Source of the DNA: Myxococcus stipitatus
Lineage (GTDB): Bacteria > Myxococcota > Myxococcia > Myxococcales > Myxococcaceae
Length of the DNA: 64,000 nt
Reading direction: 5' to 3'
NCBI RefSeq assembly: GCF_038561935.1
Contig: NZ_CP102770.1
Coordinates: 8,804,001-8,868,000 of the forward strand
In this document: piece by piece, positions 1,268-15,259 of the stretch
Position numbering within the stretch: the first letter of the stretch is position 1
Layout: every line of letters begins with the position of its first letter
The notes under the pieces: model-generated
Databases searched by the model: none
Seen by the model: only the letters and a program-made list of their open reading frames with translations
What the model was told of the DNA's origin: nothing
Program-made: the position numbers and the translations under genes

Positions 1268-4200
1268 ATGCTGACTCGGCTCATTGATTGGTCCTTGTCA
1301 CACCGCTGGGCCGTGCTGCTGGGCACGGCGGCGCTGGTCGTCTCCGGGCTGCTCGCCTTCCGAGTCCTGCCCATCGACGCCATCCCGGACACCACTCCCG
1401 TGCAGGTGCAGGTGAACACGGTGGCGCCCGCGCTCACGCCCACCGAGGTGGAGCGGCAGCTCACCATCCCCATCGAGCAGGCACTCTCGGGGCTGCCTCG
1501 CGTCAGCGAGCTGCGCTCCATCTCCAAGTTCGGCCTGTCCCAAGTCACGCTCCAGTTCAGCGACGGCGTGGACCTGTGGTTCGCGAGGCAGCAGGTGTCC
1601 GAGCGACTGAGCCGAATCCAGACGCCCACCGGCATCGAGCCTCCCTCGCTGGGGCCCGTGGCCACGGGCCTGGGCGAGGTGTTCCACTACCTGGTCAAGA
1701 GCCGCACGCGGAGCCTGGAGGAGCTGCGCACCCTGCACGACGGGGTCATCGCGCCCCAGCTCCGCGCGGTGCCTGGGGTGGCGGAGGTGAATGCCTGGGG
1801 TGGCGAGGAGAAGCAGTGGCACGTCATCGTCGACCCTCGACGGCTTCAGCAGTTCAGCCTCGACCTGGGTGATGTCTACCGAGCCCTGGAGGAGAACAAC
1901 GCCAACGTCGGCGGTGGCGTGGTCGAGCGCGCCGGAGCCTCGAGCCTGGTGCTCGGCGTGGGAGTGCTCGATGGAGGCAAGTCCATCGAGGACGTGGTCG
2001 TCGCCGCGCGCCGAGGCGTGCCCGTGCGCATCCGCGATGTGGCGCGCGTCGAGGTGGGGCATGAAATCCGGAGGGGCGCCACCACGGCGGATGGAGAGGG
2101 CGAGGTCGTCCTCGGCCTGGGCTTCATGTTGGTGGGAGAGAACTCGCACACGGTGACGAAGGCGCTGGCGCTGCGTTTGGAGGAGCTCAGGCGGACCCTG
2201 CCCGAAGGTGTCACCGTGGAGCCGGTCTACGAGCGCACGGAGCTGGTGGAGCTGGTGCTGCGCACGGTGCGCACCAACCTCCTGGAGGGCGCGCTGCTGG
2301 TCATCGCGGTCCTCTTCCTCTTCCTGGGCAACTGGCGCGCGGGGCTCATCGTCGCGGCGGCCATTCCCTTGTCGATGCTGTTCGCCTTCAACGCGATGTT
2401 GCGCTTTGGCATCGCGGGGACACTCATGTCGCTGGGGGCCATCGACTTCGGGCTCGTGGTCGACTCCTCCGTCATCCTGGTGGAGAACGCGGAGAGGCGG
2501 CTGGCGGAGGCTCGGGATGGGCGCTCGCTGCTGGAGGTGGTGCGAGACGCCGCCATCGAGGTGCGCAAGCCCACGCTCTTCGGTGAGCTCATCATCATGG
2601 TGGTGTACCTGCCCATCCTCGCGTTGGAGGGCGTGGAGGGGAAGCTGTTCCGCCCCATGGCGCTCACGGTCATCTTCGCGCTGCTCGGGAGCGCGGTGCT
2701 GTCCATGACGCTGATGCCGGTGCTGGCGTCGTTCGCGCTGAAGCGAGGTGCGAAGCCGCACGCGGAGCCGCGCCTCGTGCGCTTCCTCCAGCGGTGCTAT
2801 CGGCCAGTGCTCGAGTGGGCGCTGGCCCATGCGCGCGTCACGCTTGGAGCCGCGGCGCTGCTCGTGTTGGGAGCGGCCTTCGCCGCCACGAGGCTGGGGA
2901 GCGAGTTCGTCCCGCGCCTCTCCGAAGGCACGCTCGTCATCAACACGGTGCGCCTGGCCGAAGTCTCTCTCTCGGAGTCGGTGCGCTACGGTGGACAGAT
3001 AGAGCGCGTGTTGCTGTCGCACTTTCCCGACGAGGCGCAGCGGGTCTGGACGCGCACGGGCACGGCGGAGGTGGCCACGGACCCGATGGGCATCGAGCTG
3101 TCGGATGTCTTCATCACGCTCAAGCCCCGGGAGCAGTGGAAGCGAGCGGAGACCCAGGAGGAGCTGGTTGGAGAGATGAAGGCGGAGCTGGCGGACCTGC
3201 CCGGCATGCGCATGGCGTTCCTCCAGCCCATCGAGATGCGGGTCAACGAGATGATTGCGGGCGTGCGCAGTGACGTCGGCATCAAGCTCTTCGGGGACGA
3301 CCTCGAGGTGCTCAAGGCGAAGGCACGCGAGGTGGAGGCGCTGGTGAAGGGCCTCCCGGGCGCGGCGGATGTCACGGTGGAGCAGGTGACGGGGCAGCCG
3401 GTGATGGAGGTGGTGGTCGACCGGAGTGCGGTGGCGCGACATGGCATTCCCGCGCGAGCGGTGCTCGACGTGGTGGAGGCCATGGGCACGCGCGTCGTCG
3501 GCGAGGTGCGCGAGGGCGAGCGCAGGTTCGACCTGGCAGTGCGGCTGCTGGAGGAGTACCGCGACGACCCGGCGAAGCTCGCGTCCATTCCAGTGACAGC
3601 CCCGAGCGGCGAGCGGATTCCCCTGGGGAGGCTGGTGACGATTCGCGAGGTCGTGGGCCCCACGACCATCCAGCGCGAGTGGGGAAAGCGCCGACTGGTG
3701 GTCCAGGCGAACGTGCGCGAGCGCGACCTCGGTGGTTTCGTGGACGAGCTGCGCCGCACGCTCGACACGCAGCTGGAGCTGCCGACGGGCTACTCCGTTC
3801 GGTATGGAGGACAGTTCGAGCACCTGGAGCGTGCCCGGGCGAGACTGCTCATCGTGGTGCCGGTGGCGTTGACACTCATCTTCCTGCTGCTCTACCTCAC
3901 GTATCACCGGGTCCTGGATGCGCTGCGCATCTTCGCGGGAGTCCCCTTCGCGCTCGTGGGGGGAGTCCTGGCGCTCCTGGTGCGGGGCTTGCCGTTCTCC
4001 ATCTCCGCCGCCGTGGGTTTCATCGCACTGTCCGGTGTGTCCGTCCTAGGGGACATGGTGCTCGTCTCTCGCGTGCGGGGACTGCTGGAGCGCGGCCTGT
4101 CCGTGGGGGAGGCCATTCGGGAAGCGGCCCTGACGCGGTTGCGGCCCGTGCTGATGACGGCGGCGGTGGCCGCCATCGGCTTCGTTCCCATGGCGCTGAA

Positions 4201-4396
4201 CACGGGAGTCGGTGCGGAGGTCCAACGGCCGCTCGCCACGGTCGTCATCGGAGGCGTCCTCTCCTCTACCCTGCTCACGCTCGTGGTGCTTCCCGTCCTC
4301 TACACGGTGTTCGGAGCGGGGCGGAGCACGTCCGAGAATGAGCCACCTGTCGCTTCGGCGGATGCAGCACCCGAGGAAGGGCGCGCGGTGGGATGA
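1268..4396 (+). CDS. Heavy-metal efflux RND pump, CusA/CzcA family
   Basis: This is an inner-membrane proton-driven metal exporter of 1042 residues, the usual family length. It starts MLTRLIDWSLSHRW and has the family motif LPIDAIPDTTPVQVQV. The proton-relay helix reads DFGLVVDSSVILVEN, placing D393, D399 and E406 with the same spacing as the essential D402/D408/E415 of CzcA. Two periplasmic porter regions and the second six-helix half (from about residue 865) are intact. It follows the adaptor gene by five bases. No outer-membrane channel gene is adjacent within the window; one could lie upstream of base 1. The metal (Cu/Ag versus Co/Zn/Cd) cannot be decided by eye. Confidence 0.93.
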   Translation: MLTRLIDWSLSHRWAVLLGTAALVVSGLLAFRVLPIDAIPDTTPVQVQVNTVAPALTPTEVERQLTIPIEQALSGLPRVSELRSISKFGLSQVTLQFSDGVDLWFARQQVSERLSRIQTPTGIEPPSLGPVATGLGEVFHYLVKSRTRSLEELRTLHDGVIAPQLRAVPGVAEVNAWGGEEKQWHVIVDPRRLQQFSLDLGDVYRALEENNANVGGGVVERAGASSLVLGVGVLDGGKSIEDVVVAARRGVPVRIRDVARVEVGHEIRRGATTADGEGEVVLGLGFMLVGENSHTVTKALALRLEELRRTLPEGVTVEPVYERTELVELVLRTVRTNLLEGALLVIAVLFLFLGNWRAGLIVAAAIPLSMLFAFNAMLRFGIAGTLMSLGAIDFGLVVDSSVILVENAERRLAEARDGRSLLEVVRDAAIEVRKPTLFGELIIMVVYLPILALEGVEGKLFRPMALTVIFALLGSAVLSMTLMPVLASFALKRGAKPHAEPRLVRFLQRCYRPVLEWALAHARVTLGAAALLVLGAAFAATRLGSEFVPRLSEGTLVINTVRLAEVSLSESVRYGGQIERVLLSHFPDEAQRVWTRTGTAEVATDPMGIELSDVFITLKPREQWKRAETQEELVGEMKAELADLPGMRMAFLQPIEMRVNEMIAGVRSDVGIKLFGDDLEVLKAKAREVEALVKGLPGAADVTVEQVTGQPVMEVVVDRSAVARHGIPARAVLDVVEAMGTRVVGEVREGERRFDLAVRLLEEYRDDPAKLASIPVTAPSGERIPLGRLVTIREVVGPTTIQREWGKRRLVVQANVRERDLGGFVDELRRTLDTQLELPTGYSVRYGGQFEHLERARARLLIVVPVALTLIFLLLYLTYHRVLDALRIFAGVPFALVGGVLALLVRGLPFSISAAVGFIALSGVSVLGDMVLVSRVRGLLERGLSVGEAIREAALTRLRPVLMTAAVAAIGFVPMALNTGVGAEVQRPLATVVIGGVLSSTLLTLVVLPVLYTVFGAGRSTSENEPPVASADAAPEEGRAVG

Positions 4397-4415
4397 GCGA
4401 TGCGCGGTCACTCAC

Positions 4416-6341
4416 TCAGGGCCGCAGCCGGAAGGGCACCTTGACCACGCGGTACACGGCGACGGGCTGCCCCTCCAGCATCGCCGGTTGATATCGCCAC
4501 GTGCGCACCGCGCGCAGCGCGGCGGAGGCGAAGGGCTCGTCACCTCGCATCACCGTGACGTCTCGGACCTCGCCCCGCGCCGTGACGACCAGCTTGAGGA
4601 CCACCATCCCTTCGCGTCCCGCCGCTCGCGCTTCCTGGGGGAACTCCGGCTGCTGATTCCCCACGAGCTCCACGGGCGGTTTCGCGTTCTCCGGCAGTTG
4701 GATGGGCTCGGCGGGAGCACTGCTCGAACGCGCCCCGACCGCCACCGGCCTGGTGGGCTCCACGGCGGCGGCGGGAGCCTCCAGCGGCGTGGGGGCACTC
4801 AGCGACGGTCCTGACTGCCACTCCGCCGGACCCGCCACCTCCGCGCCGGGAGATGACGCTCCTCCTCGGCCTCCTCGTTCGCGCTGCAGTCGCTGATTCA
4901 AGAGCACCTCGCCAGACCCACCCGCGAGCACCCGGTCCGAGCGATAGCCCTCCCGCACGAACGTCAGCTCCGCCGTGGCCAACCCCTTCGCATCCGGTGG
5001 CACCTCCAGCACGAAGGGCGTCGTGCCTCGCTCCACGCCCTTCCAGAAGACTCGCGCTCCCGAAGGTTGGCTGGAGACATGGAAGCGCACGGGCTGAGGC
5101 GGCTGCACCGCCGCCACCGTGGGCGGCGACTCGCGCACCGGCGCCGCCGATGGAACCGGTGTGACCCCTGTCTGCGCGGCCACCGGAGGAGAAGGAACAC
5201 GACGTGCACCGAGCAGATAGGCCCCGACTCCACAGGCGAGCAGCACGCCCAACATCAACCCCCAGCGACGGAAGCTCGGACGAGGCGACTCCGGACGAAG
5301 CACGGAGGACTCATCCAGGCTGATGTCCAACACCATCGTGCTCTGCCCCCCCCTGTTCGTGGACGGCGTCGACACGGCGAGCGGCCCGGTCAGCACTTCA
5401 CCCGGGCCCGTGTCCGCCGAACCCCCGCCTACGCCCCGCAGGGCCTCCAGGAGCGCATCCATGGACTCGTACCTGTGCGCGGGCTGCTTCTCCAGGCAGC
5501 GACGCACCACAGCCTCCACGGACTCGGGAACCGCCATCTCCGGACGCACCACTTGGAAGCGAGGGGGCGGCTCCTTCTGGTGCGCGAAGATGAGCTCCAG
5601 CGGGTCCTGCATCACGAAGGGCGGACGCCCCATGAGCATCTGGTACAGCAAAACTCCGAGTGCATAGACGTCACTGCGCGCATCCGCCAGGTTCCGCGCC
5701 TGCTCCGGCGCCATGTACATCGGCGACCCCAGGAACATCCCGCCCTGGGTGATTTCCGGCACCGCCGCGTCGCCACCACTCGCGCTCGCGCCCACCACGG
5801 CGAAGGACTTCACCAGCCCGAAGTCGAGCACCTTCACATGGTCGCGCCCCTCCTCCGCCAGCAGCATCACGTTCGCGGGCTTCAAATCCCGGTGCACCAC
5901 TCCCAGCCGATGCGCCTCGCGCAGCGACCGGCACACCTGCTGCGCAATCTCCACCGCGCGCGGCCAGGGCAGGGGCCCGGAGGCCAGGTGCTCCGCCAGC
6001 GTGCGCCCCTCCAGGTACTCCATCGCGATGTAGAACGTCCCATCCTCCGTCTTCCCGTAGTCGATGACGGTGACGGTGTTGGGATGGGTCAGCTTCGCCG
6101 TGATGCTCGCCTCCAGGAGGAAGCGCCGCTGGAACTCCGGGTCGCTCGCGGTGGGGAACGTGGGACTCATCACCTTGAGCGCCACCACCCGCTCCAACGG
6201 AAGCTGGAGCGCGCGATACACCCGGCCCATGCCCCCGGCGCCCACGGGCGACAGCACCCGGAAGCGCCCGTGGAGCACCTGGCCGAGCAGCGGGTCCACC
6301 AGCGAGTGAGGCGACGTCGACGGGCGCGGATCAGTCTGCAT
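4416..6341 (-). CDS. Ser/Thr protein kinase with PEGA and C-terminal TonB-like domain
   Basis: This is a Hanks-type transmembrane kinase of 641 residues from the ATG at 6341, which has an AGGTG ribosome site. A GTG at 6380 in frame would add 13 residues. The kinase domain has the Gly-rich loop GAGGMGRVY, catalytic Lys56, HRDLKPAN (HRD at 150-152), DFG at 173-175 and a SPMYMAPEQ activation segment. One membrane helix follows at about 360-378. A PEGA domain (about 418-484, with SSQPSGARVFWKG) and a Pro/Ala-rich stretch lead to a TonB C-terminal fold (about 562-641, with PEFPQEARAAGREGMVVLKL and AVRTWRYQPA). The kinase is thus cytoplasmic and the PEGA and TonB-like parts periplasmic. It converges on the RND pump gene and has no obvious operon partner. 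Substrates are unknown. Confidence 0.9.
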   Translation of the reverse strand: MQTDPRPSTSPHSLVDPLLGQVLHGRFRVLSPVGAGGMGRVYRALQLPLERVVALKVMSPTFPTASDPEFQRRFLLEASITAKLTHPNTVTVIDYGKTEDGTFYIAMEYLEGRTLAEHLASGPLPWPRAVEIAQQVCRSLREAHRLGVVHRDLKPANVMLLAEEGRDHVKVLDFGLVKSFAVVGASASGGDAAVPEITQGGMFLGSPMYMAPEQARNLADARSDVYALGVLLYQMLMGRPPFVMQDPLELIFAHQKEPPPRFQVVRPEMAVPESVEAVVRRCLEKQPAHRYESMDALLEALRGVGGGSADTGPGEVLTGPLAVSTPSTNRGGQSTMVLDISLDESSVLRPESPRPSFRRWGLMLGVLLACGVGAYLLGARRVPSPPVAAQTGVTPVPSAAPVRESPPTVAAVQPPQPVRFHVSSQPSGARVFWKGVERGTTPFVLEVPPDAKGLATAELTFVREGYRSDRVLAGGSGEVLLNQRLQRERGGRGGASSPGAEVAGPAEWQSGPSLSAPTPLEAPAAAVEPTRPVAVGARSSSAPAEPIQLPENAKPPVELVGNQQPEFPQEARAAGREGMVVLKLVVTARGEVRDVTVMRGDEPFASAALRAVRTWRYQPAMLEGQPVAVYRVVKVPFRLRP

Positions 6342-6443
6342 GGCGAGCACCTGCCGGAGACCGTCGCATGCGGTCGTCACGGCGGTGTGCCGGCCACATC
6401 ACGCCCCGGCCAACATCCCGTCACAAATCGGCGCGCCTCCGGG

Positions 6444-6475
6444 AGCACCGGCCCCGCGACGCACGGGCCGGTGCT
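6444..6475 (-). terminator. Strong hairpin after the polysaccharide lyase-like gene
   Basis: A perfect 11-bp inverted repeat (AGCACCGGCCC at 6444-6454 and GGGCCGGTGCT at 6465-6475, 10-base loop) lies 19 bases beyond the stop of the 6494-7492 gene on the minus strand. It sits between two minus-strand genes. No clear T run follows, so it may act as a hairpin-only terminator. Confidence 0.6.
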
Positions 6476-6493
6476 TCCCTCCACCACCAGGGA

Positions 6494-7492
6494 CTACGAG
6501 GAGCGGCGACGGCGAACCCGCGCCAGCCCCAAGAGTCCCAACAGCGTCAGCGCCGCGAGCGAGCCACCCGAGCTGTTGCAGCCCGAGCCCTCCGCGTCGC
6601 CTCCATCCGGGAGCACCTCCACCGGCGGCTTCAGCCCCCCCGTCCCCGCATCCGAGGCCACACCCGCGTCCGCTTGCGGCGGAGGCCCCGCATCCACGGG
6701 CTCCGGCACCACGGGCTCACCCGCGTCCGGCGAAGGCTCGGGAGTCCCCGCGTCCACCGGAGGCGTGCCCGCATCCGGCACCGTCGGCGTCTCCAGCACG
6801 TCCGCCAGCGTCGTCGCCTGGATGAAACCATCGTGATACACGACGCCGACCTGCTTCACGGTGTCACTGCGATACAGGCCCAGCTTCAAGTAGTTGCCCT
6901 GCCCCGCGTACATCGTCACCGCGCTGCGCTTCTGCAGCACCTTCTCCTTGTTGTGCCACAGCTCCACGAAGCCCGTGCTCGCCTTCGAGGACCACTTCAC
7001 GTGCAGGATGAACTCGTGCCACACGCCCCGCTGGAGCTTCGTGCGCCACGGAATCGTGTTGTCGTCGTTCAACACCATGCGGATCTCCTCACCTCGCACG
7101 TAGAACTCCAGCGGAGGTGAGCCGCAGCACCCGTCATGGTGCCACTGCGTGAAGAGCTGCCACGTATCCACGCTCGGAAAGTCCGGTGCGAACATCACGT
7201 TCCACCGATAGAAGTACTCGGAGCCTTCCTTCTCGCCCCCCTGGTACACCAGCTCGTTGCGGTTGCCGCTGGAGTTGATGGGGTCGTCCCCCTGTTTCAC
7301 GGTGACCTTCAGCGCGTACTTCCCCTGCGCCACCGGATTCGTCACCACCAGCAACCGGTCCGAGCTCACCATCTGCTCGCCCGAGTATTGCGAGCGGTTT
7401 CCCGTCTCGAAGTCACCTCTCCACACAATGCCTGCCAAAGCCAGGCTGGGAACCATCCACATCGCAAGCAAACCAGGGACGAAGACTCTCAA
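6494..7492 (-). CDS. Secreted polysaccharide lyase-like protein with MYXO-CTERM-like tail
   Basis: The 332-residue protein has a signal peptide (cleavage after about residue 20, SLALA). A beta-jelly-roll domain follows at about 21-230 (GDFETGNRSQYSG; NRNELVYQGG; YFYRWNVMFAPDF; WHEFILHVKWSS), resembling the heparin/glucuronan-lyase-like polysaccharide lyase superfamily. Next is a linker of repeated PDAG/VDAG units, typical of myxobacterial surface proteins. The end has a Gly-Cys motif, a hydrophobic helix and an Arg cluster (SGCNSSGG ... RVRRRRSS), the layout of MYXO-CTERM sorting tails processed by a myxosortase. It is probably surface-anchored and acts on an exopolysaccharide. The exact substrate and active-site residues were not assigned. 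Confidence 0.8.
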   Translation of the reverse strand: MRVFVPGLLAMWMVPSLALAGIVWRGDFETGNRSQYSGEQMVSSDRLLVVTNPVAQGKYALKVTVKQGDDPINSSGNRNELVYQGGEKEGSEYFYRWNVMFAPDFPSVDTWQLFTQWHHDGCCGSPPLEFYVRGEEIRMVLNDDNTIPWRTKLQRGVWHEFILHVKWSSKASTGFVELWHNKEKVLQKRSAVTMYAGQGNYLKLGLYRSDTVKQVGVVYHDGFIQATTLADVLETPTVPDAGTPPVDAGTPEPSPDAGEPVVPEPVDAGPPPQADAGVASDAGTGGLKPPVEVLPDGGDAEGSGCNSSGGSLAALTLLGLLGLARVRRRRSS

Positions 7493-7811
7493 TCACACCT
7501 GTCCTGTGAATGTTTGACAGCCAACGTTTGACACGCTGGAGCCCAAAGCATTCCACAGTTTCATTCCCGCTGCGTTTTCATCCCTCTCGCCTGACAACGG
7601 GGCAGGCATCCGAGCAAGAGACTGGATGTCTGATAAATCTTTCGCCAGGTGTGGGGGCCCTCCACCCGCCGGCCGGGCCGGTGAGTTCCCCTAATGACTC
7701 AGTGCGCCATCGGCGGATTCCTCGGCGCCGCGAGGTGCCTTCTGGAAGGTGGTGTGGTGTATGGTCCCCACCCCTTCCGGCGCTCCATCCTTGGGCGTCC
7801 CGGGTGCCCCC
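7493..7811. promoter_or_regulatory. Divergent intergenic region with a GTTTGACA direct repeat
   Basis: These 319 bases separate the divergent lyase-like gene and the AstA-type gene and should contain both promoters. The only structure seen is an exact 8-base direct repeat, GTTTGACA, at 7512-7519 and 7526-7533, 14 bases start to start. Each copy contains a -35-like TTGACA, but no convincing -10 follows at 16-18 bases. No ORF or RNA gene was recognised. Confidence 0.35.
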
Positions 7812-8837
7812 ATGCTTCTCCTGCGTGACGTCCAGAAGACCGACCTGGCCGGCCTCAAGCGGCTCGCCGCCGTGCTCAACACGGTGAACCTGCCGAACAA
7901 CGAGGAGACGCTCGAGAACATCATCGACAAGTCGGTGAAGAGCTTCGCCGGCAAGGTGAAGAACCCGCTCGAGCGCGAGTACCTCTTCGTCCTGGAGGAC
8001 GTGCGAAACAGCCTCATCATCGGCACGTCGATGATCATCGCCCAGCACGGCACGTACGAGGCGCCGCACATCTACTACGAGGTGAGCGAGCGGGAGCACT
8101 ACTCCGCCTCCCTGGAGCGCCACCTCCGGCACAAGGTCCTCTCCATCGCCTACAACTACGAGGGCCCCACGGAGATTGGTGGCCTCGTCGTCGACCCGCC
8201 CTACCGCGCCACGCCCGACAAGCCCGGCAAGCAGCTGTCGTACGTGCGCTTCCTCTTCATCGCCATGCACCGCCGGCTGTTCCGTCCGCGCGTGCTCGCG
8301 GAGCTGCTCCCGCCGCTGCTCCCGGACGGACGCAGCCTGCTGTGGGAGGCGTGCGGCAAGAAGTTCACCGGGCTGACTTACCTGGAGGCCGACCGCCTCA
8401 GCCGGCAGAACAAGGAGTTCATCAAGGAGCTCTTCCCCGCCTCGGACATCTACGCGTCCCTCTTCCCGGACCGCGTGCAGAAGGTGCTGGGCGAGGTGGG
8501 GCCGAACACGCGCGGCGTGCAGCGCATGCTGGAGCGCATCGGCTTCAAGTACGTGGAGCGCATCGACCCGTTCGACGGAGGCCCGCACTTCGAGGCCAAC
8601 ACGGGCGACGTGACGCTCATCCGCAAGTACCGCACGGTGAAGCTGGCGGAAGAGGACTTCGAGATGGAGGGGGACGACGTGCTCGTCGCCTTCGAGAAGG
8701 ACTCGGGCCGCAACCGCTTCCGCTCCGTGCGCTGCATGGCCCGGCTCGACAACCAGGTCATCTACCTGCCCGCCGCCGCGAAGGAAGCCCTGGGCGCGGA
8801 CGCGGGCGACCGGCTGTCCATCATCCCCTTCGAGTAA
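7812..8837 (+). CDS. astA: Arginine N-succinyltransferase family protein (AstA-like)
   Basis: The protein has 341 residues from the ATG at 7812; an in-frame upstream start at 7749 would only add low-quality residues. AstA transfers succinyl from succinyl-CoA to the alpha-amino group of arginine, the first step of the arginine succinyltransferase pathway. Family features are a GNAT-like N-terminus starting MLLLRDVQKTDL, the motif GLVVDPPYR with LSYVRFLFIAMHR, WEACGKKFTGLTYLEADRLS, and the signature RIDPFDGGPHFEA near the C-terminal third. No astB, astC, astD or astE gene is nearby. It may be a solitary pathway gene or a family member with another acceptor amine. It stands alone, converging on the transglutaminase-like gene. 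Confidence 0.85.
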   Translation: MLLLRDVQKTDLAGLKRLAAVLNTVNLPNNEETLENIIDKSVKSFAGKVKNPLEREYLFVLEDVRNSLIIGTSMIIAQHGTYEAPHIYYEVSEREHYSASLERHLRHKVLSIAYNYEGPTEIGGLVVDPPYRATPDKPGKQLSYVRFLFIAMHRRLFRPRVLAELLPPLLPDGRSLLWEACGKKFTGLTYLEADRLSRQNKEFIKELFPASDIYASLFPDRVQKVLGEVGPNTRGVQRMLERIGFKYVERIDPFDGGPHFEANTGDVTLIRKYRTVKLAEEDFEMEGDDVLVAFEKDSGRNRFRSVRCMARLDNQVIYLPAAAKEALGADAGDRLSIIPFE

Positions 8838-8849
8838 CCGGACCGAAGC

Positions 8850-9872
8850 TCACCGCTGGCGGACCACGCGGTGGGCTCCCCGCAGGAGCGCGAGCCACCG
8901 CGCCCCCGCCTCCAGCGCCGGGCCTCGCGCATCCGCGAGGGCCAGCGGCAGGTGCGTGTCCGGCCGCACCGCGTCCAGCGAGGTGGGGTCCAAATCCAGC
9001 GTGCCGCCCTCCACCAGCGCCACGCGCACCCACGCATGCGGCCTGGCGGGTCCGCCATCCACCACCAGGAGCCCGTGCACCAGGGCCACGCTCACGCCCT
9101 TCTTCCGAGCCTCCGCCGCGAAGCGCAGCGCGTGCGCCAGACATCCACCCGCCTCGCCTTCGCCCCCCTCGCGCCAGTCCGCGGCCCCAGGGCCCTTCTC
9201 CGGGAACGCCGCGTGGACACGCGCCGAGAGGGCCCGGGCCGCGCCACGTGTCCACGGCGTCATGCCCTCCAGCCGTGGCGGGACCTCTACGGCGGGCACC
9301 AGCGTCAGCGCCCCGTCCGTGCCCTCCACGGGGAGCCCCTGCGAGAAGAAGTCGGGCGGCGCGCGCAGGGGCTCTCCCGGGGACGCCACGGTGAAGCGGG
9401 ACTCGCCCACCTCCAGCACCTCCATGCGCCCACCCGCGCCGTAGCGGGCCCGGAAGGGGACGCCCAGCAGCGTGCCCTCCACCCAGGGGGCCGTCCCTCC
9501 GGTGACACAGTGGGGGCCCTCGCGACCGGACAGCTCCTCGCGCCCCGTCACGCAGCCTGGCGCGGGCGGGCCTCGCCACAGCCACAGCGCCTGGGGCACC
9601 ACCTTTCCCCCCGCGAGCCGACCCGAGGCATCCACCTCCAGCGTCACCTCGCGGCGCCGCTCTCCGTGGCTGGAGCCTCGGGTGTGCAGGTGCTGGCTCA
9701 GGTAGGAGAAGCGTCCGGCCTCGTGCGTCAGGCTCACCGTGCCCACGGGCACCCCTCGCCAGGAGAAGACGAAGCGCGCCGACTCCCCCCGGGGAGGGCC
9801 CTCTGTCCCCTTCCCTGGGCTCACGGGGCTGGCGGCGAGGGCGAGGACGAGGAGGGCGAGCGGGGAAGACAC
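8850..9872 (-). CDS. Secreted transglutaminase-like (Cys-His-Asp) protein
   Basis: The 340-residue protein starts at a GTG and has an N-terminal hydrophobic signal sequence (SSPLALLVLALAASP). The first half is a beta-rich region of unknown family (FVFSWRGVPVGTVSLT). The C-terminal third carries a transglutaminase-core pattern: Cys244 in GGCLAHALRFAAEARKKG, His279 in PHAWVRV and Asp295 in DLDPTSLD, in the order and rough spacing of the Cys-His-Asp triad. It is probably a periplasmic cysteine peptidase-like or amide-forming enzyme. It lies between a convergent astA gene and the divergent chemoreceptor gene. The substrate is unknown. Confidence 0.75.
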   Translation of the reverse strand: MSSPLALLVLALAASPVSPGKGTEGPPRGESARFVFSWRGVPVGTVSLTHEAGRFSYLSQHLHTRGSSHGERRREVTLEVDASGRLAGGKVVPQALWLWRGPPAPGCVTGREELSGREGPHCVTGGTAPWVEGTLLGVPFRARYGAGGRMEVLEVGESRFTVASPGEPLRAPPDFFSQGLPVEGTDGALTLVPAVEVPPRLEGMTPWTRGAARALSARVHAAFPEKGPGAADWREGGEGEAGGCLAHALRFAAEARKKGVSVALVHGLLVVDGGPARPHAWVRVALVEGGTLDLDPTSLDAVRPDTHLPLALADARGPALEAGARWLALLRGAHRVVRQR

Positions 9873-9937
9873 GAGGCCCCCAGTCTGCGGCGTTTTGAGG
9901 ACCGGCGCGAGAAGGCAGGGTAGCCTTCCCCACGTCC

Positions 9938-12900
9938 ATGGGCGCCAAACGGTACCTCTTCACGTTCGGCCTGCTGGCCGGTCTGCTCTCCGCGCTCGTG
10001 CTCGGGGGGGTCCTCGAGTTGAGCGGTCAGCCGCTGGAGGCCTCCTCCTGGACGGTGCTGGTGCTGGCCACGCCCGCGCTGTACCTGACGGGTGGCTATC
10101 TGGCGTGGTTCCGCTGGGCGGCGCTGCGGCGACTGGCCCGGCGTCGCGTCATGGCTCGGCTGGCGGAGGGAGACCTCACCACCTCTGGCGGGCCCACCTT
10201 CGAGGGACACGAGGATGTCCGCCGCCTCATCTTGTCGCTGCGCCGTGCGTTGTCGCAGGTGCAGCGGGTGACGGCCAACCTGCACCGCACCAGCAACGAC
10301 GTGAGCGAACAGGCCCTCAGCCTGCTCGAAGCGGCGCGCCGCCAGGGAGGCGCCGTGGAGCGCACGCTCCAGTCCGTCAGCGACATGGGCGGCAGCCTCC
10401 AGGTGGTGGGCAAGCGCGTGCACCAGCTCGAGGTGTTCGCCGTCGACACCACCGGCGCGCTGCTGGAGATGACGGAGCGGCTGGGACAAGTCGTCGGCGC
10501 GCTGTCGCAGGTCAACGACTTCGCCAACCACACCACCTCGCTGATGCAGGCCATGAGCGAGCGGCTGGCCAACATCGCCTCGTCGGGGGATGAGCTGGCG
10601 CGCTTCGCGAGCGAGGCCGAGGACTTCGTCGCCCTCGTCGAAGGCGGCATCGACTCCGTGCGCCGCCGCGCCAGCGAGACGAACCAGCTGGCGCTCGCGG
10701 TGACGGCCACGGCCGAGCGGGGCGAAGTGCTGGTGGCCGACAGCGTGAAGGGCATGTACCGGGTGGAGGAGACGGTCCGGAAGGCCGCGGAGCTGATGGG
10801 CACGCTGGGCTCCCGCTCCGCGGAGATTGGCCGCATCGTCGACGTCATCCAGGAGATTGCCGACCAGACCAACCTGCTCGCCCTCAACGCGGCCATCATC
10901 GCCGCCCAGGCGGGTGAGCACGGCCGGCCCTTCGGCGTGGTGGCCAACGAGATTCGCAACCTCGCCGAGCGCACCACGCGCTCCACGCGCGAAATCGGCG
11001 CCATGGTGTCCGGCATCCGCGACGCGGTGCTGACCGCGGTGACGCTGGTGCACGAAGGCCGCGAGCAGGCCACCACCGGCGTGGCGCTGGGAGACCGCGC
11101 CTCCGAGGCACTGGTGGAGATTCGCACCATCACCCAGCGCACCTTCAGCGCCGTGGAAGCCACGGTGACGGAGACGCAGCGGCTGGAGGCCCAGGGCGCC
11201 ACGGTGGTGGAGGCCAGCCGGCGGGTGGCTCGGCGCGTGGAGGACGTCACGCGCATGGCCATCGAGCAGTCCGGCCACGCCCGCGAGCTGGTGCGCCAGA
11301 CGATGGAGATGGCCCGCGTGGGGCATGGGGCCTCGCAGAAGGCGGAGGACCAGGCGCGCACGGGGCGCGACCTGTCCGAGGCCGTGGTGCGCCTGAGCGC
11401 GTCCATCGAGGAGCTGCGCACCGCCAACGCGGTGCTCATCAAGGCGGACTCGTCCATTCGCGAGGAGGTGGCGCAGGTGCGGGAGGACGCGCGCCGGGTC
11501 ATCCGCATCGGCGATGGGCTGACGCGCACGGTGAATCAGCTGGGCCACGAGGCGCTGGGGTTGGAGACGGAGGTGTTCCGCTTCCAGCTGCCGCGGCCTC
11601 GCGCGGGCGGCACGATGCGCGTGGTGCTGCACCAGGCGGCCTCGCTGCGAAACCGCCAGGCGGTGGACCCGCTGTTCAGCGTGGAGAACCAGCTCTCGGA
11701 GCTGACCGCGTGTGCCTTCTCGGGCCTCACGCGGCTGGAGGACGGCGGGCTGGAGCCGGACCTCGCCGAGCGCTGGGACGCGGACCCGTCCGCGCGCCGC
11801 TACCGCTTCTACCTGCGCCGAGGCGTCACCTTCCACGACGGGGCGCTGCTCACCGCGACGGACGTGAAGCGCCACCTGGAGCGGCTGATGGACCCGGCCG
11901 TGCGCTCACCGGACCGCAGCCTGCTCGAGGACGTGGAGGGCGCGGTCGAGTTCTCCTCGGGACTGGCGCGCGAGGTGTCCGGCATCGAGGTGCTCGACGA
12001 CTCGACGCTGGAGATTCGCCTGCGCGAGCCCAAGGCATTCTTCCCGCACTTGATGGCGCTGACGCCCACGGCGGTGGCGCGAGTGGATGCGGGGGGAAGG
12101 CTGGTGGGCACCGGCCCGTTCCGCGTCGTGTCGCTGGAGCCCGAGCGCGTGGTGCTGGAGCGCAATCCGTCCTACTGGCGCCCCACGGTGCCGCTGCTGG
12201 ACCGGCTGGAGTTCCAGTTGGTGGACTCGCGCGAGGAGGCCGTCACGAGGCTGCGCACGGGCGCGGCGGACCTGGTGTCCTTCCTCTCCGCGGAGCACGT
12301 GGAGGTGCCGGGGCTCGACTCCTTCCAGGTGCTGGCCAGCGCCGCGCCCTTCACCGCCTTCATCGCCCTCAACCTGCGCGAGACGCCGTACGACGACGTG
12401 CGCGTGCGCCGGGCCCTGCGCGCGGGCATGAACATCCAGGGCGCGGTGGAGCAGTTCCACCCAGGCGCCCGCGTGGCCCGCACCCTCACCCCGCCCGAGC
12501 TGCTGGGCGGCGCGGAGGTCCGAGGACTGCCGACCCCCGACGTGGCGATGGCGGAGCAGCTCCTGCGCGAGGTGGGCCTGCGTCGGCTGCGGCTCACGCT
12601 GCATCACCCCGCCGGGCGCGACACCTCCGCCGAGGACGCGGTCCTCTTCCGTCCCCTGTTGCAGGCGGGCCTGCTGGAGCTGCGGCATGTGGAGATGGCG
12701 CCGGAGGACTACGCGGTGCAACTGCGCGAGGGGAAGCTCCCGGCCTTCCATGCCCACTGGCTGGCGGACTTCCCGGACCCGGACACGTTCCTCTACTTCC
12801 TGCTGAACTCCGCCGCGCAGACCGTCTACCCGCTGAGCTATCGCAACGCGGAGCTGGACCGCATCACCGCGGAGGCGCGCGTGTCCATCGACCCGGAGCT

Positions 12901-13081
12901 GCGCCAGCAGCTCTACGTGCGCGCCGAGCACCTCTTCCACGACGACTGTCCGCTCATCCCGCTGTACCACGAGCGCATCCACGCGGCGGCCACGTCGTCG
13001 GTGCAGGGACTTCGGCTGCACCAGACGCCTCCACAGGTCCGCTACGAGGACCTCTGGGTGGACCCGAACACGGCCGCGTGA
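9938..13081 (+). CDS. Methyl-accepting chemotaxis protein fused to a family-5 solute-binding domain
   Basis: The protein has 1047 residues. Two membrane helices (about 6-27 and 36-54) are joined by only some eight residues, so there is no periplasmic sensor domain. Then come a HAMP-like segment and a long coiled-coil signalling region, whose hairpin tip EIADQTNLLALNAAIIAAQ begins at E306 and continues GEHGRPFGVVANEIRNLAE. This is the MCP contact region for CheA/CheW. From about residue 560 to the end is a complete SBP_bac_5 (oligopeptide/dipeptide-binding) fold: DPLF, GLTRLEDGGLEPDLAERW, FYLRRGVTFHDG, TGPFRVVS, NPSYWRP and DFPDPDTFLYFLL. By topology this domain is cytoplasmic. The cytoplasmic regulator SgrR is a known precedent for a cytoplasmic SBP_5 domain. 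No che or opp genes flank it. Confidence 0.88.
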   Translation: MGAKRYLFTFGLLAGLLSALVLGGVLELSGQPLEASSWTVLVLATPALYLTGGYLAWFRWAALRRLARRRVMARLAEGDLTTSGGPTFEGHEDVRRLILSLRRALSQVQRVTANLHRTSNDVSEQALSLLEAARRQGGAVERTLQSVSDMGGSLQVVGKRVHQLEVFAVDTTGALLEMTERLGQVVGALSQVNDFANHTTSLMQAMSERLANIASSGDELARFASEAEDFVALVEGGIDSVRRRASETNQLALAVTATAERGEVLVADSVKGMYRVEETVRKAAELMGTLGSRSAEIGRIVDVIQEIADQTNLLALNAAIIAAQAGEHGRPFGVVANEIRNLAERTTRSTREIGAMVSGIRDAVLTAVTLVHEGREQATTGVALGDRASEALVEIRTITQRTFSAVEATVTETQRLEAQGATVVEASRRVARRVEDVTRMAIEQSGHARELVRQTMEMARVGHGASQKAEDQARTGRDLSEAVVRLSASIEELRTANAVLIKADSSIREEVAQVREDARRVIRIGDGLTRTVNQLGHEALGLETEVFRFQLPRPRAGGTMRVVLHQAASLRNRQAVDPLFSVENQLSELTACAFSGLTRLEDGGLEPDLAERWDADPSARRYRFYLRRGVTFHDGALLTATDVKRHLERLMDPAVRSPDRSLLEDVEGAVEFSSGLAREVSGIEVLDDSTLEIRLREPKAFFPHLMALTPTAVARVDAGGRLVGTGPFRVVSLEPERVVLERNPSYWRPTVPLLDRLEFQLVDSREEAVTRLRTGAADLVSFLSAEHVEVPGLDSFQVLASAAPFTAFIALNLRETPYDDVRVRRALRAGMNIQGAVEQFHPGARVARTLTPPELLGGAEVRGLPTPDVAMAEQLLREVGLRRLRLTLHHPAGRDTSAEDAVLFRPLLQAGLLELRHVEMAPEDYAVQLREGKLPAFHAHWLADFPDPDTFLYFLLNSAAQTVYPLSYRNAELDRITAEARVSIDPELRQQLYVRAEHLFHDDCPLIPLYHERIHAAATSSVQGLRLHQTPPQVRYEDLWVDPNTAA

Positions 13082-13087
13082 AGTGAG

Positions 13088-15259
13088 TCACGGGGCCGGG
13101 ACCTCGCGCCGCGCTCCGTCCGAATGCGCGTGCCGTTGAGGCCAGCCGAGTGTCTCCACCTGGATGCCCGGCCCCAGGCCGTACGACTCCAGTCGCCACA
13201 CGCCCTCGCGCTCCACGACGACGAGCATCCGCCCCTCGAAGAACGCCGCGCCCGCCATCCGTGTCGGATACCCCGGCAGCGGACACATGCCCAGTCGCTC
13301 GCCTTGCGCGAAGAACTGCAGCCACACCTGCCGGCCCTCTGGCACCCACGCATCCGCGAGCACTCCCACCCAATCCCCCTGCAGCAACGCCGCGTCGTAC
13401 AGCGTGCCGGGCAGCGCCTCGAAGGGCAGCGCATCCACCTCCCACTCCGCGCGCCCCGTCGTCGAGTCCACCGCGCGGAGCACGGTGCGCTCCTCTTCCG
13501 GAGTACAGGGGAGTCCCCCCTCGCGCGCGCAGGACTGGGCGAACAGATAGCCCCAGGTCCCCGCCGCGGACAGCAGCGCGGGCTCCGCGTGGGGCGTCAG
13601 CGTGCGAGCCCCTCCATCCCAGTCCACGTCCACCTGTGCGCCGCCGTCCATGGAGACAAAGGCCCGCGCGCCCACCAGGAGCGCCCCTCTCGCGACCGCC
13701 AGCGAGGCGCTCCCGATGAGGGCACCGCCATCGTCACGCAGGGAGGTGAGGCGCAGCGAGGAGCCGCCATCCGGGTCGACGTCGGCGCGCTCCAAGCGAC
13801 CCTCCCCGGTGTATCGAATCGGTGTGCCCGCCGTGTCGAGCACGAGCCGAGCCTCTCCTCGCCACGGCTCGACGGGCCCCGCGTGGACGAGTGAGCCCGC
13901 GTCCTCTCGCCCCGCGAGCCAGACCCACCGGGCGCCTTCCGGCACGGGAGCGGCGGTGCCCCCATCCTCCTCCGAGCCGCCATCCAGCACGTGAGCCCAC
14001 GCCACCTGCGCGATGACGTCCCCCGTCTCCGTCAGCGCGACATGCCCCGCGCCCAGGTGCCCGACCCAGGGCCCCGCGTCCACGGGCGCACCGAGCGACT
14101 CCCACGTCGCCTCCCACTGACGCTCTCCCAGGCCCCGGGCGGCATAGGACTCCAGCCCCGAGGGCGCGAACACCACCACGCCCGCATCCGACACGGCCAG
14201 CAAGGTGCGCGGGCCTCCATCGGGATAGGGCGACTCGTAGCGCATCAGTCCCCGCGAGGTGAAAGAGACCAGCCGACATCCCGCGTCGCCGCCGCAGACC
14301 GAGGTGAACAGTCCGCCTTCCTGAACGAGCAGCGCGGGAGAACCCACGGGCTCCCCACCGAGCTCCTGGCTGAAGGTCGCCACGAGGTCTCCCGCGTCGG
14401 GCTTCTCGCACTCACCTCCCTGGCACGTGCCCTCCCCCTGACAGGCCGTCGCGGGGGCGCAGACGATGCCATCCGGGGGCGTCATCTCCTTGCAAGAGCC
14501 ATCGAAACACAACCGCGCCTTCTTGCAGCTCACGGGTCCACAGACGCTGAAGTCCCGAGCATCCTCTTCGCCACAGCCCAGGTCGCGGTCGCACACGCCC
14601 ACCTTGCAGGGGTTGCGCGGCACGGGACACACCACCGGCGAGCTCACACAGCCCAGGGTCTGCGAGCACGCGTCCACGGTGCACGGGTTGTCGTCATCAC
14701 AGGAGCGAGGAGCCCCCACGCACGCGCCCGACTCACAGCGTCCGTTCACCTGGCAGCGGCTGAGGGGGACACAGGAGACACCATCCGCGAGGGGCTGCTC
14801 CACACAGGTGCCGGAGGCGAGGTCGAAGCTCGCCGCGTGGCAGGGACTCGAAGGCGTGCACGTCAGCGGACGAACCCCCAGGCCCTTGAGCCGGACGGAG
14901 GTGGTGCCCCCCGGGCCCGTCAGCGTCAGCGTGCCCTCCACGGAGCCCACGCCCGCGAGATAGTCCACATCGACGACGGCGGTGCCTCCCCCGGGCACCG
15001 TCACCTCCGACGCCGTCACGATGAAGGGGGCGCCGGAAGCCACCGCCACCGAGACACTCGCGCGACCGGTGGCGAGCACCGTCACCTGCCGGCGTGTCAG
15101 CGTGCCTTCGAGGGCCCGGCCGAAATCGACCTCCTCATCCTGGGCGCGGAAGCCCTGGCGCGCACCGCCCACGTTGGAGTTGTCCCCGCAGCGGCAGCCC
15201 GCCGAGCACAGCGCGAGCACGGCGAACAACAGGGTCCCCGAGTGGATGCATGAGGCCAT
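13088..15259 (-). CDS. Cys-rich lipoprotein with propeller-like C-terminus
   Basis: This 723-residue protein of unrecognised function has a signal peptide and probable lipobox (CSAGC, Cys22). The N-terminal region (about 40-130) resembles an immunoglobulin-like choice-of-anchor or ASPM-SPD-2-Hydin domain (VDFGRALEGTLTRRQVTVL). Residues about 135-290 are Cys-rich repeats of the type CDDDNPCTVDACSQTLGC, common in myxobacterial surface proteins. The C-terminal 430 residues carry blade-like repeats resembling a PQQ/WD propeller, interrupted by DAG, DGG and EEDGG turns. It is probably an outer-membrane or surface lipoprotein. It stands alone, converging on the chemoreceptor gene. Confidence 0.75.
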   Translation of the reverse strand: MASCIHSGTLLFAVLALCSAGCRCGDNSNVGGARQGFRAQDEEVDFGRALEGTLTRRQVTVLATGRASVSVAVASGAPFIVTASEVTVPGGGTAVVDVDYLAGVGSVEGTLTLTGPGGTTSVRLKGLGVRPLTCTPSSPCHAASFDLASGTCVEQPLADGVSCVPLSRCQVNGRCESGACVGAPRSCDDDNPCTVDACSQTLGCVSSPVVCPVPRNPCKVGVCDRDLGCGEEDARDFSVCGPVSCKKARLCFDGSCKEMTPPDGIVCAPATACQGEGTCQGGECEKPDAGDLVATFSQELGGEPVGSPALLVQEGGLFTSVCGGDAGCRLVSFTSRGLMRYESPYPDGGPRTLLAVSDAGVVVFAPSGLESYAARGLGERQWEATWESLGAPVDAGPWVGHLGAGHVALTETGDVIAQVAWAHVLDGGSEEDGGTAAPVPEGARWVWLAGREDAGSLVHAGPVEPWRGEARLVLDTAGTPIRYTGEGRLERADVDPDGGSSLRLTSLRDDGGALIGSASLAVARGALLVGARAFVSMDGGAQVDVDWDGGARTLTPHAEPALLSAAGTWGYLFAQSCAREGGLPCTPEEERTVLRAVDSTTGRAEWEVDALPFEALPGTLYDAALLQGDWVGVLADAWVPEGRQVWLQFFAQGERLGMCPLPGYPTRMAGAAFFEGRMLVVVEREGVWRLESYGLGPGIQVETLGWPQRHAHSDGARREVPAP

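Follow-up and report, generated by a model that had tools for sequence, protein, structure and literature searches.

What does a chemoreceptor report on when its solute-binding domain appears to lie on the cytoplasmic side of the membrane, and to which kinase does it pass the signal? The question is raised by mcpK, which occupies positions 9938-13081 (+) of a 64,000-nucleotide stretch of the Myxococcus stipitatus genome (contig NZ_CP102770.1, positions 8,804,001 to 8,868,000 of the forward strand; hereafter the window) and encodes a methyl-accepting chemotaxis protein (MCP) of 1047 aa with a C-terminal solute-binding protein (SBP) domain of the SBP_5 type. From length and domain content we infer that the gene, like that of a 1048-aa protein of M. 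xanthus AM003 (L113) which is 81% identical to the window's McpK, is an orthologue of M. xanthus MXAN_6456. We favour, at a probability of roughly 0.6, the reading that this McpK orthologue is a cytoplasmic SBP_5 peptide sensor which shares arrays with a McpJ-like receptor and has the Che8 kinase as its output. McpK has already been listed in M. xanthus (Moine et al. 2014, PMC3945109) and is a widespread, conserved gene in the family, while its OppA-like ligand motif, a tip residue pair shared with the McpJ-like receptor and its recurrence in Acidobacteriota are additions of the present analysis. The locus holds interest as its topology is well supported, while the published partner is at odds with the signalling tip, arm length and tree.

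The gene is one open frame of 1047 codons with no internal stop, and its start, MGAKRYLF, is common to nearly all McpK frames extracted from the same genus, with that of L035 deviating. In a Pfam search MCPsignal was matched at residues 252-417 (E 5.9e-32; 111.3 bits against a cut-off of 34.6) and SBP_bac_5 at residues 605-960 (E 1.7e-61; 208.8 bits against a cut-off of 32.4), the latter over profile positions 2-365 of 368. Both families were matched by 43 of 43 aligned McpK relatives (MCPsignal at E 0.001), and by sequence the MCP part matched 13 distinct chains of solved chemoreceptors at 1e-5. An AlphaFold2 model built from 43 rows (mean pLDDT 79.2, pTM 0.57) placed the hairpin turn at about residue 325, after two N-terminal helices (residues 2-28 and 35-76), and predicted the domain from about residue 555 well, with ten-residue blocks mostly at 82-94 and the lowest at 65. 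The single frame joining an MCP to a complete C-terminal SBP_bac_5 domain (about residues 560-1040), as proposed in an initial annotation made from the letters alone, was thus borne out by the frame, the domain search and the model.

The MCP antiparallel hairpin extends over about residues 116-549 (10283-11584, +), with model helices at 91-185/220-324 and 326-431/458-546, and the complete SBP_5 fold, internal to the protein, over about residues 555-1043 (11600-13066, +). At the junction between them (residues 546-557; 11573-11608, +) the end of the MCP C-arm is followed by VFRFQLPRPRAG and the start of the SBP domain. We compared this joint in two alignments, one of the window protein with 28 other extracted frames picked for spread (A1), and one of the window protein with 42 of 46 full-length frames, from which fragments and the near-duplicates L084, L085, L091 and L101 were left out (A3); L072 and L074 are present in A1 and not in A3. 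Residues F549, L551, P552, G557 and G558 are invariant across the 29 proteins of A1, and F549, G557 and G558 remain so across the 43 of A3, which include those from Acidobacteriota.

The initial annotation had itself named a frame error near base 11600 as one finding that would refute it, and a sequencing frameshift that merges two separate genes does find one precedent of sorts in G058, where, as in no other copy, the loss of 11 bp from the linker between the two domains breaks the frame at the joint (L070, about 8354). This deletion is either a draft error or real. A McpK match at 1e-60 or better is, however, present in 88 of 96 genomes of the family (80 of 83 among those of good quality), and in 87 of the 88 a single match in one frame crosses residue 555. 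As the joint is conserved across relatives, the frame-error reading was rejected, and we regard its likelihood as vanishingly small. The fusion, which had been thought unusual, is so at large, but within the family it is the rule and already bears the name McpK.

Six of the 88 matches are partial or pieced (G005, G008, G013, G058, G088 and G095), that in G013 being marked with one TGA. The eight family genomes in which no McpK match was found are G010, G048, G052, G083-G086 and G093, and G083-G086 measure 2.1-3.9 Mb. Across the class 92 of 147 genomes gave a match. Four of these lie outside the family: G137 at full length with 46% identity, G134 with 37% from residue 67, G145 with 36% from residue 52, and G146 in two contig pieces. 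Four genomes of genus g3 (G002, G003, G005 and G006) have two McpK-type matches each, both of them partial in G005.

At the N-terminus, hydropathy marks membrane helices at about residues 8-28 (9959-10021, +; model helix 2-28) and 38-58 (10049-10111, +; model helix 35-76). The initial annotation had also noted two close-set helices, and both appear in the model, although the gap between them is six residues wide, not about eight. A HAMP-like connector follows at about residues 60-115 (10115-10282, +), recognized by eye from an AEGDLT motif and in the alignment, despite the lack of a Pfam HAMP match in the window's McpK. Over the 43 relatives the mean number of Lys plus Arg was 2.09 in residues 1-7, 0.26 in residues 28-38 and 5.58 in residues 59-76, and this in-out-in pattern, together with the absence of any stretch of mean hydropathy above 1.6 between hairpin and SBP domain, argues that tip and binding domain both face the cytoplasm. 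The helix pair, the positive-inside charge and the model agree here, so that the cytoplasmic location suggested by the initial annotation is well supported. Since the second arm of an MCP hairpin leads back to the membrane, the hairpin base, beside the connector, is where the SBP domain would sit. It is internal, placed after the hairpin and preceded only by the N-terminal helix pair, and lacks the export signal of an SBP; we therefore class the protein as an MCP with an SBP_5 domain and not as an SBP.

Were there a third membrane helix, the SBP domain would lie in the periplasm like an ordinary SBP, and a TMHMM count of three is tabulated for M. xanthus McpK (Moine et al. 2014, PMC3945109), which tells against a cytoplasmic domain. 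A hydrophobic stretch at residues 353-371, present in some members, also speaks for such a helix. After residue 90, a 19-residue stretch with a mean hydropathy above 1.6 was found in 4 of 43 relatives, each time at this position, while the M. xanthus row reached 1.43. In none of the four does it lie between hairpin and binding domain; it belongs to the MCP hairpin, a little beyond the tip and within model helix 326-431, and a membrane passage there would leave the conserved C-arm without a partner. A third helix, which the initial annotation had named as fatal to its topology, was thus judged highly unlikely.

The C-terminal part has the fold of the periplasmic peptide binders. In VIA-align, whose listing spans residues 552-1044 only, the best match was GbpA (3m8u; Z 35.5, rmsd 2.7 over 465 residues), and GbpA, OppA, MppA and DppA all scored Z 34-35.5 over 462-489 residues, in agreement with Foldseek. 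When a profile of 11 relatives was aligned to OppA (1b05, with positions taken from the printed numbering of the chain), Arg413, Trp416 and Asp419 of OppA fell on McpK residues 938, 941 and 944. In OppA, Asp419 holds the amino end of the peptide and Arg413 a carboxylate. The corresponding segment (residues 938-944; 12749-12769, +) has the family consensus R-x-x-W-x-A-D, with Arg, Trp and Asp present in 42, 43 and 42 of the 43 proteins of A3 and in 27, 29 and 28 of the 29 of A1. This conserved OppA-like motif supports a predicted ligand-binding domain on the cytoplasmic side of an MCP, which is likely to sense intracellular peptides.

The window's own McpK reads HAHWLAD at this segment, with His in place of the conserved Arg938, so that ligand binding by this copy should not be assumed; L072 has Tyr at 938, and L054 and L108 have Asn at 944. 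The His of the window's copy, and the fact that McpK has no known ligand, give some substance to an alternative in which the SBP domain binds nothing and instead stabilises the dimer or docks a partner while the receptor reads another input. Set against it are the full two-lobed fold of the model and the retention of the anchor motif in relatives of only 21-23% overall identity, and we consider a domain that has lost binding rather unlikely.

If McpK is a cytoplasmic peptide sensor, the question becomes which kinase it serves. The initial annotation had pointed to a Che/Frz array. It had also noted Ile for the usual Glu in the tip (residues 309-346; 10862-10975, +), which reads AAIIAAQAGE and in much of the remainder is conserved. 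The replacement of Glu by Ile (I321) was confirmed, and it proved to be one half of a conserved pair, with Gln (Q324) for the usual Arg, and not a private change; the Gln is visible in the motif given by the initial annotation, which passed over it. Of the 29 rows of A1, 27 have the I/Q pair, and of the 43 of A3, 38 have it, the exceptions being L073 (L119 in A3), L074 and four Acidobacteriota rows. Among the 19 MCPs of this genome it is confined to McpK and a single McpJ-like receptor (C1:8.20 Mb; L157/L178; a 722-codon frame), the other 17 keeping Glu. Arm length divides the MCPs in the same way, 193 residues following the tip segment in McpK (F549 minus 356, the end of the tip segment in this count) and 195 in the McpJ-like receptor, compared with 127 in the Dif-cluster receptor and 110-123 in the other 16 MCPs, the counts running to the frame end and so including tails. 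In a tree of 24 hairpins, from the 19 MCPs of this genome and five other McpK relatives, the six McpK rows and the McpJ-like row formed one group with support of 97/91. The name McpJ-like is our inference from tip, length, HAMP and tree, as Dif-cluster is from a position beside CheA and CheW.

The Frz link was thus not upheld: tip pair, arm length and tree place McpK with the McpJ-like receptor and point to McpJ and Che8 rather than Dif or Frz. At C1:6.62 Mb lies a Che8-type cluster in which no MCP gene was found and which encodes CheY, CheB, CheR, two CheW and CheA together with a HEAT-repeat protein and a receiver protein; M. xanthus che8 comprises the same che genes, with no MCP listed (Moine et al. 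2014, PMC3945109). The cluster occupies 3704-12347 (-) of L176, where the HEAT-repeat protein, of 690 aa, sits between CheW and CheR. For M. xanthus, Moine et al. (2014, PMC3945109) link McpJ, Mcp7 and McpB to Che7 and Che8. Che8, whose cluster has no receptor gene of its own, is proposed as the output from tip, arm, tree and co-occurrence. In counts across the class that are uncorrected for ancestry, a McpJ-like match occurs in 90 of 92 genomes with McpK and in 21 of 55 others. A CheA8-like protein (58-76% identity) occurs in 9 of 10 McpJ-positive and 0 of 3 McpJ-negative genomes of a 13-genome set, again uncorrected, and in 5 of the 6 McpK genomes of that set.

In the published proposal McpK and DifA serve Dif (Moine et al. 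2014, PMC3945109), in which case the same cytoplasmic sensor would deliver its output through Dif with DifA. In M. xanthus these two receptors make up length class 44H, all other MCPs being 40H, and McpK, DifA, McpB, McpJ and Mcp7 form one phylogenetic group (PMC3945109). The Dif-cluster receptor of this genome, however, retains the usual Glu and Arg at its tip, its arm of 127 residues is far from the 193 of McpK, and the tree sister of McpK is the McpJ-like receptor. Tip and arm length therefore call the McpK-Dif proposal into question. The tree decides less firmly, since holding McpK with the Dif-cluster row alone cost 7.95 log units at a p-AU of 0.047, a marginal rejection. The two-hybrid section of the same paper omits McpK. 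An output through Dif is, in our view, improbable.

Several observations weigh against a McpK that signals with McpJ to Che8. Besides the shared 44H class and the published assignment to Dif, the branch of the Dif-cluster row in the hairpin tree is long, and the 13 genomes of the CheA8 count were hand-picked, form a small set and are confounded by ancestry. Four McpJ-positive genomes that lack McpK also carry a CheA8-like protein, so that co-occurrence ties McpJ, and not McpK, to Che8, and the draft genome G146 has both McpK and McpJ matches with a CheA match of only 39%. As regards the receptor itself, the model falls below 50 at residues 194-223 and 437-459, about equidistant from the tip, leaving the hairpin uncertain, and a single consensus-like stretch for methylation (residues 487-496) was seen in McpK.

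The frame, domains, joint, two-helix topology, complete fold and conserved anchor motif, which come from sequence and model, allow a mechanism to be outlined. McpK would be anchored in the inner membrane as a chemoreceptor devoid of a periplasmic sensor, with an OppA/DppA-type SBP_5 domain that continues from the point where a C-arm naturally ends and so lies on the cytoplasmic side, by the base of the signalling hairpin nearest the membrane. This domain may bind a small peptide or peptide-like metabolite of the cytoplasm, and closure of its two lobes could shift the C-arm against the connector and so alter how the tip controls the kinase. McpK would work in arrays mixed with the McpJ-like receptor, which would then pass the output to the Che8 kinase, as tip, arm length, tree and co-occurrence suggest.

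The arrangement is not confined to Myxococcota. A scan of a genome collection with the C-terminal half of McpK returned, among the best 80 loci of at least 519 relatives above its threshold, four Acidobacteriota proteins (L121, L122, L125 and L128) in which an MCP is followed by SBP_5 at the same joint, with 21-23% overall identity. Their tip has lost AGE and neighbouring residues. L121, L122 and L125 each have two hydropathy peaks at the N-terminus, and in L128 a single peak exceeds 1.6. L126 is a fragment. In all four the fusion ends a three-gene row and is closely preceded, on its own strand, by frames of 370 and 432 codons (L121 1005-6668, L122 143-5806, L125 967-6647 and L128 983-6665). 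The upstream pair, scanned in L121 and L128, is alanine dehydrogenase-like and CoA-transferase-like, which is suggestive of amino-acid metabolism only. Other frames, L130, L134, L146 and L147, assigned to Acidobacteriota or Blastocatellia, join Pkinase and AAA to two SBP_5 domains each, L130 and L147 belonging to one genome, and an Anaerolineae metagenome-assembled genome encodes a BTAD-AAA-SBP_5 protein (L155). Of the kinase frames, L130 and L146 have no stretch with hydropathy above 1.6 and L134 and L147 one each; L140 and L141 are fragments bearing two SBP_5 domains.

Among the 5000 records listed from a plasmid collection, none had a single place that covered 80% of the McpK query. The best match there consisted of two joined pieces with no annotated feature, and one from Bosea is a plain ABC substrate-binding protein.

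The MCP, kinase-AAA and BTAD-AAA examples indicate that a C-terminal SBP_5 domain recurs with different outputs. More tentatively, and with some doubt, cytoplasmic SBP_5 domains might be recurrent intracellular peptide sensors on MCPs, kinases and a transcription factor, with McpK and Che8 reading a peptide pool such as that from digested prey, and with the Acidobacteriota receptor having shed its Che contact surface in favour of another route. The orthologue in the model predator M. xanthus makes ligand, array and phenotype testable there.

Around mcpK, 15 frames between 54 and 23264 were scanned, and none showed a che or opp domain; nor does any other MCP or CheW match of the genome lie within the window. 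The divergent neighbour at 8850-9872 (-) is transglutaminase-like (PF13471 just below cut-off) and not a che gene; a relative occurs in 22 of 35 fetched loci, some of which end at contig ends. Beyond it, at 7749-8837 (+), lies a gene of the arginine N-succinyltransferase (AstA) family (PF04958), with a relative in 19 of the 35; it shares the strand of mcpK, but the transglutaminase-like gene intervenes on the opposite strand and no inference was drawn from it. On the other side, 13088-15259 (-) encodes a 723-aa Cys-rich protein with a Dicty_CTDC (Dictyostelium repeat) match and a relative in 11 of 35 loci. A 654-aa frame at 4416-6380 (-) combines a Ser/Thr kinase domain (41-310) with a C-terminal TonB_C domain (577-652).

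Among known systems the closest is M. xanthus McpK itself (MXAN_6456), a protein of 1048 aa with an MCP signal domain at 246-463, encoded outside the che operons and tabulated with a 'Bacterial extracellular solute-binding proteins domain' (Moine et al. 2014, PMC3945109); it thus agrees with the window's protein in domains, near-equal length and location away from a che operon. The two accounts part over topology and partner, three TMHMM helices and Dif being given there and two helices and Che8 here, and the text of that paper discusses neither a cytoplasmic location nor a ligand. Our literature searches, which covered few subscription journals, returned, among the papers listed, no discussion of a cytoplasmic SBP_5 domain in McpK. 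Moine et al. place McpK neither among the deletions without a defect nor in their list of S-motility mutants, and a fruiting defect of the M. xanthus mcpK deletion would follow by exclusion, though it is unstated in their text (PMC3945109). The McpJ-like receptor resembles McpK in its I/Q tip, arm length and position in the tree, but ends at the MCP C-arm (RRFRV) with no SBP domain and matches Pfam HAMP, which McpK does not; M. xanthus McpJ has 723 aa, HAMP and two transmembrane helices (PMC3945109).

OppA, DppA, GbpA and MppA share with McpK the whole fold and the positions of OppA Arg413, Trp416 and Asp419, yet they are periplasmic, whereas the domain of McpK is cytoplasmic, fused to an MCP and without an export signal of its own. 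SgrR, which carries a solute-binding domain and is described as activating sgrS upon sugar-phosphate stress, offers a likeness in that an SBP_5 fold is at work inside the cell; it is, however, a soluble DNA-binding regulator, in contrast to the membrane-anchored MCP seen here, and its model gave a weak partial match to McpK residues 588-654 (E 1.1e-9, far below its cut-off). The Acidobacteriota kinase-AAA and Anaerolineae BTAD-AAA proteins likewise bear a C-terminal SBP_5 domain on a signalling protein, but with a kinase or transcription-factor output in place of an MCP and with a location judged from hydropathy. Chemoreceptors with cytoplasmic sensors are known in the form of PAS and zinc-binding types; driving a receptor through a complete Venus-flytrap peptide binder, placed where the hairpin ends at its C-terminal base, would differ from these.

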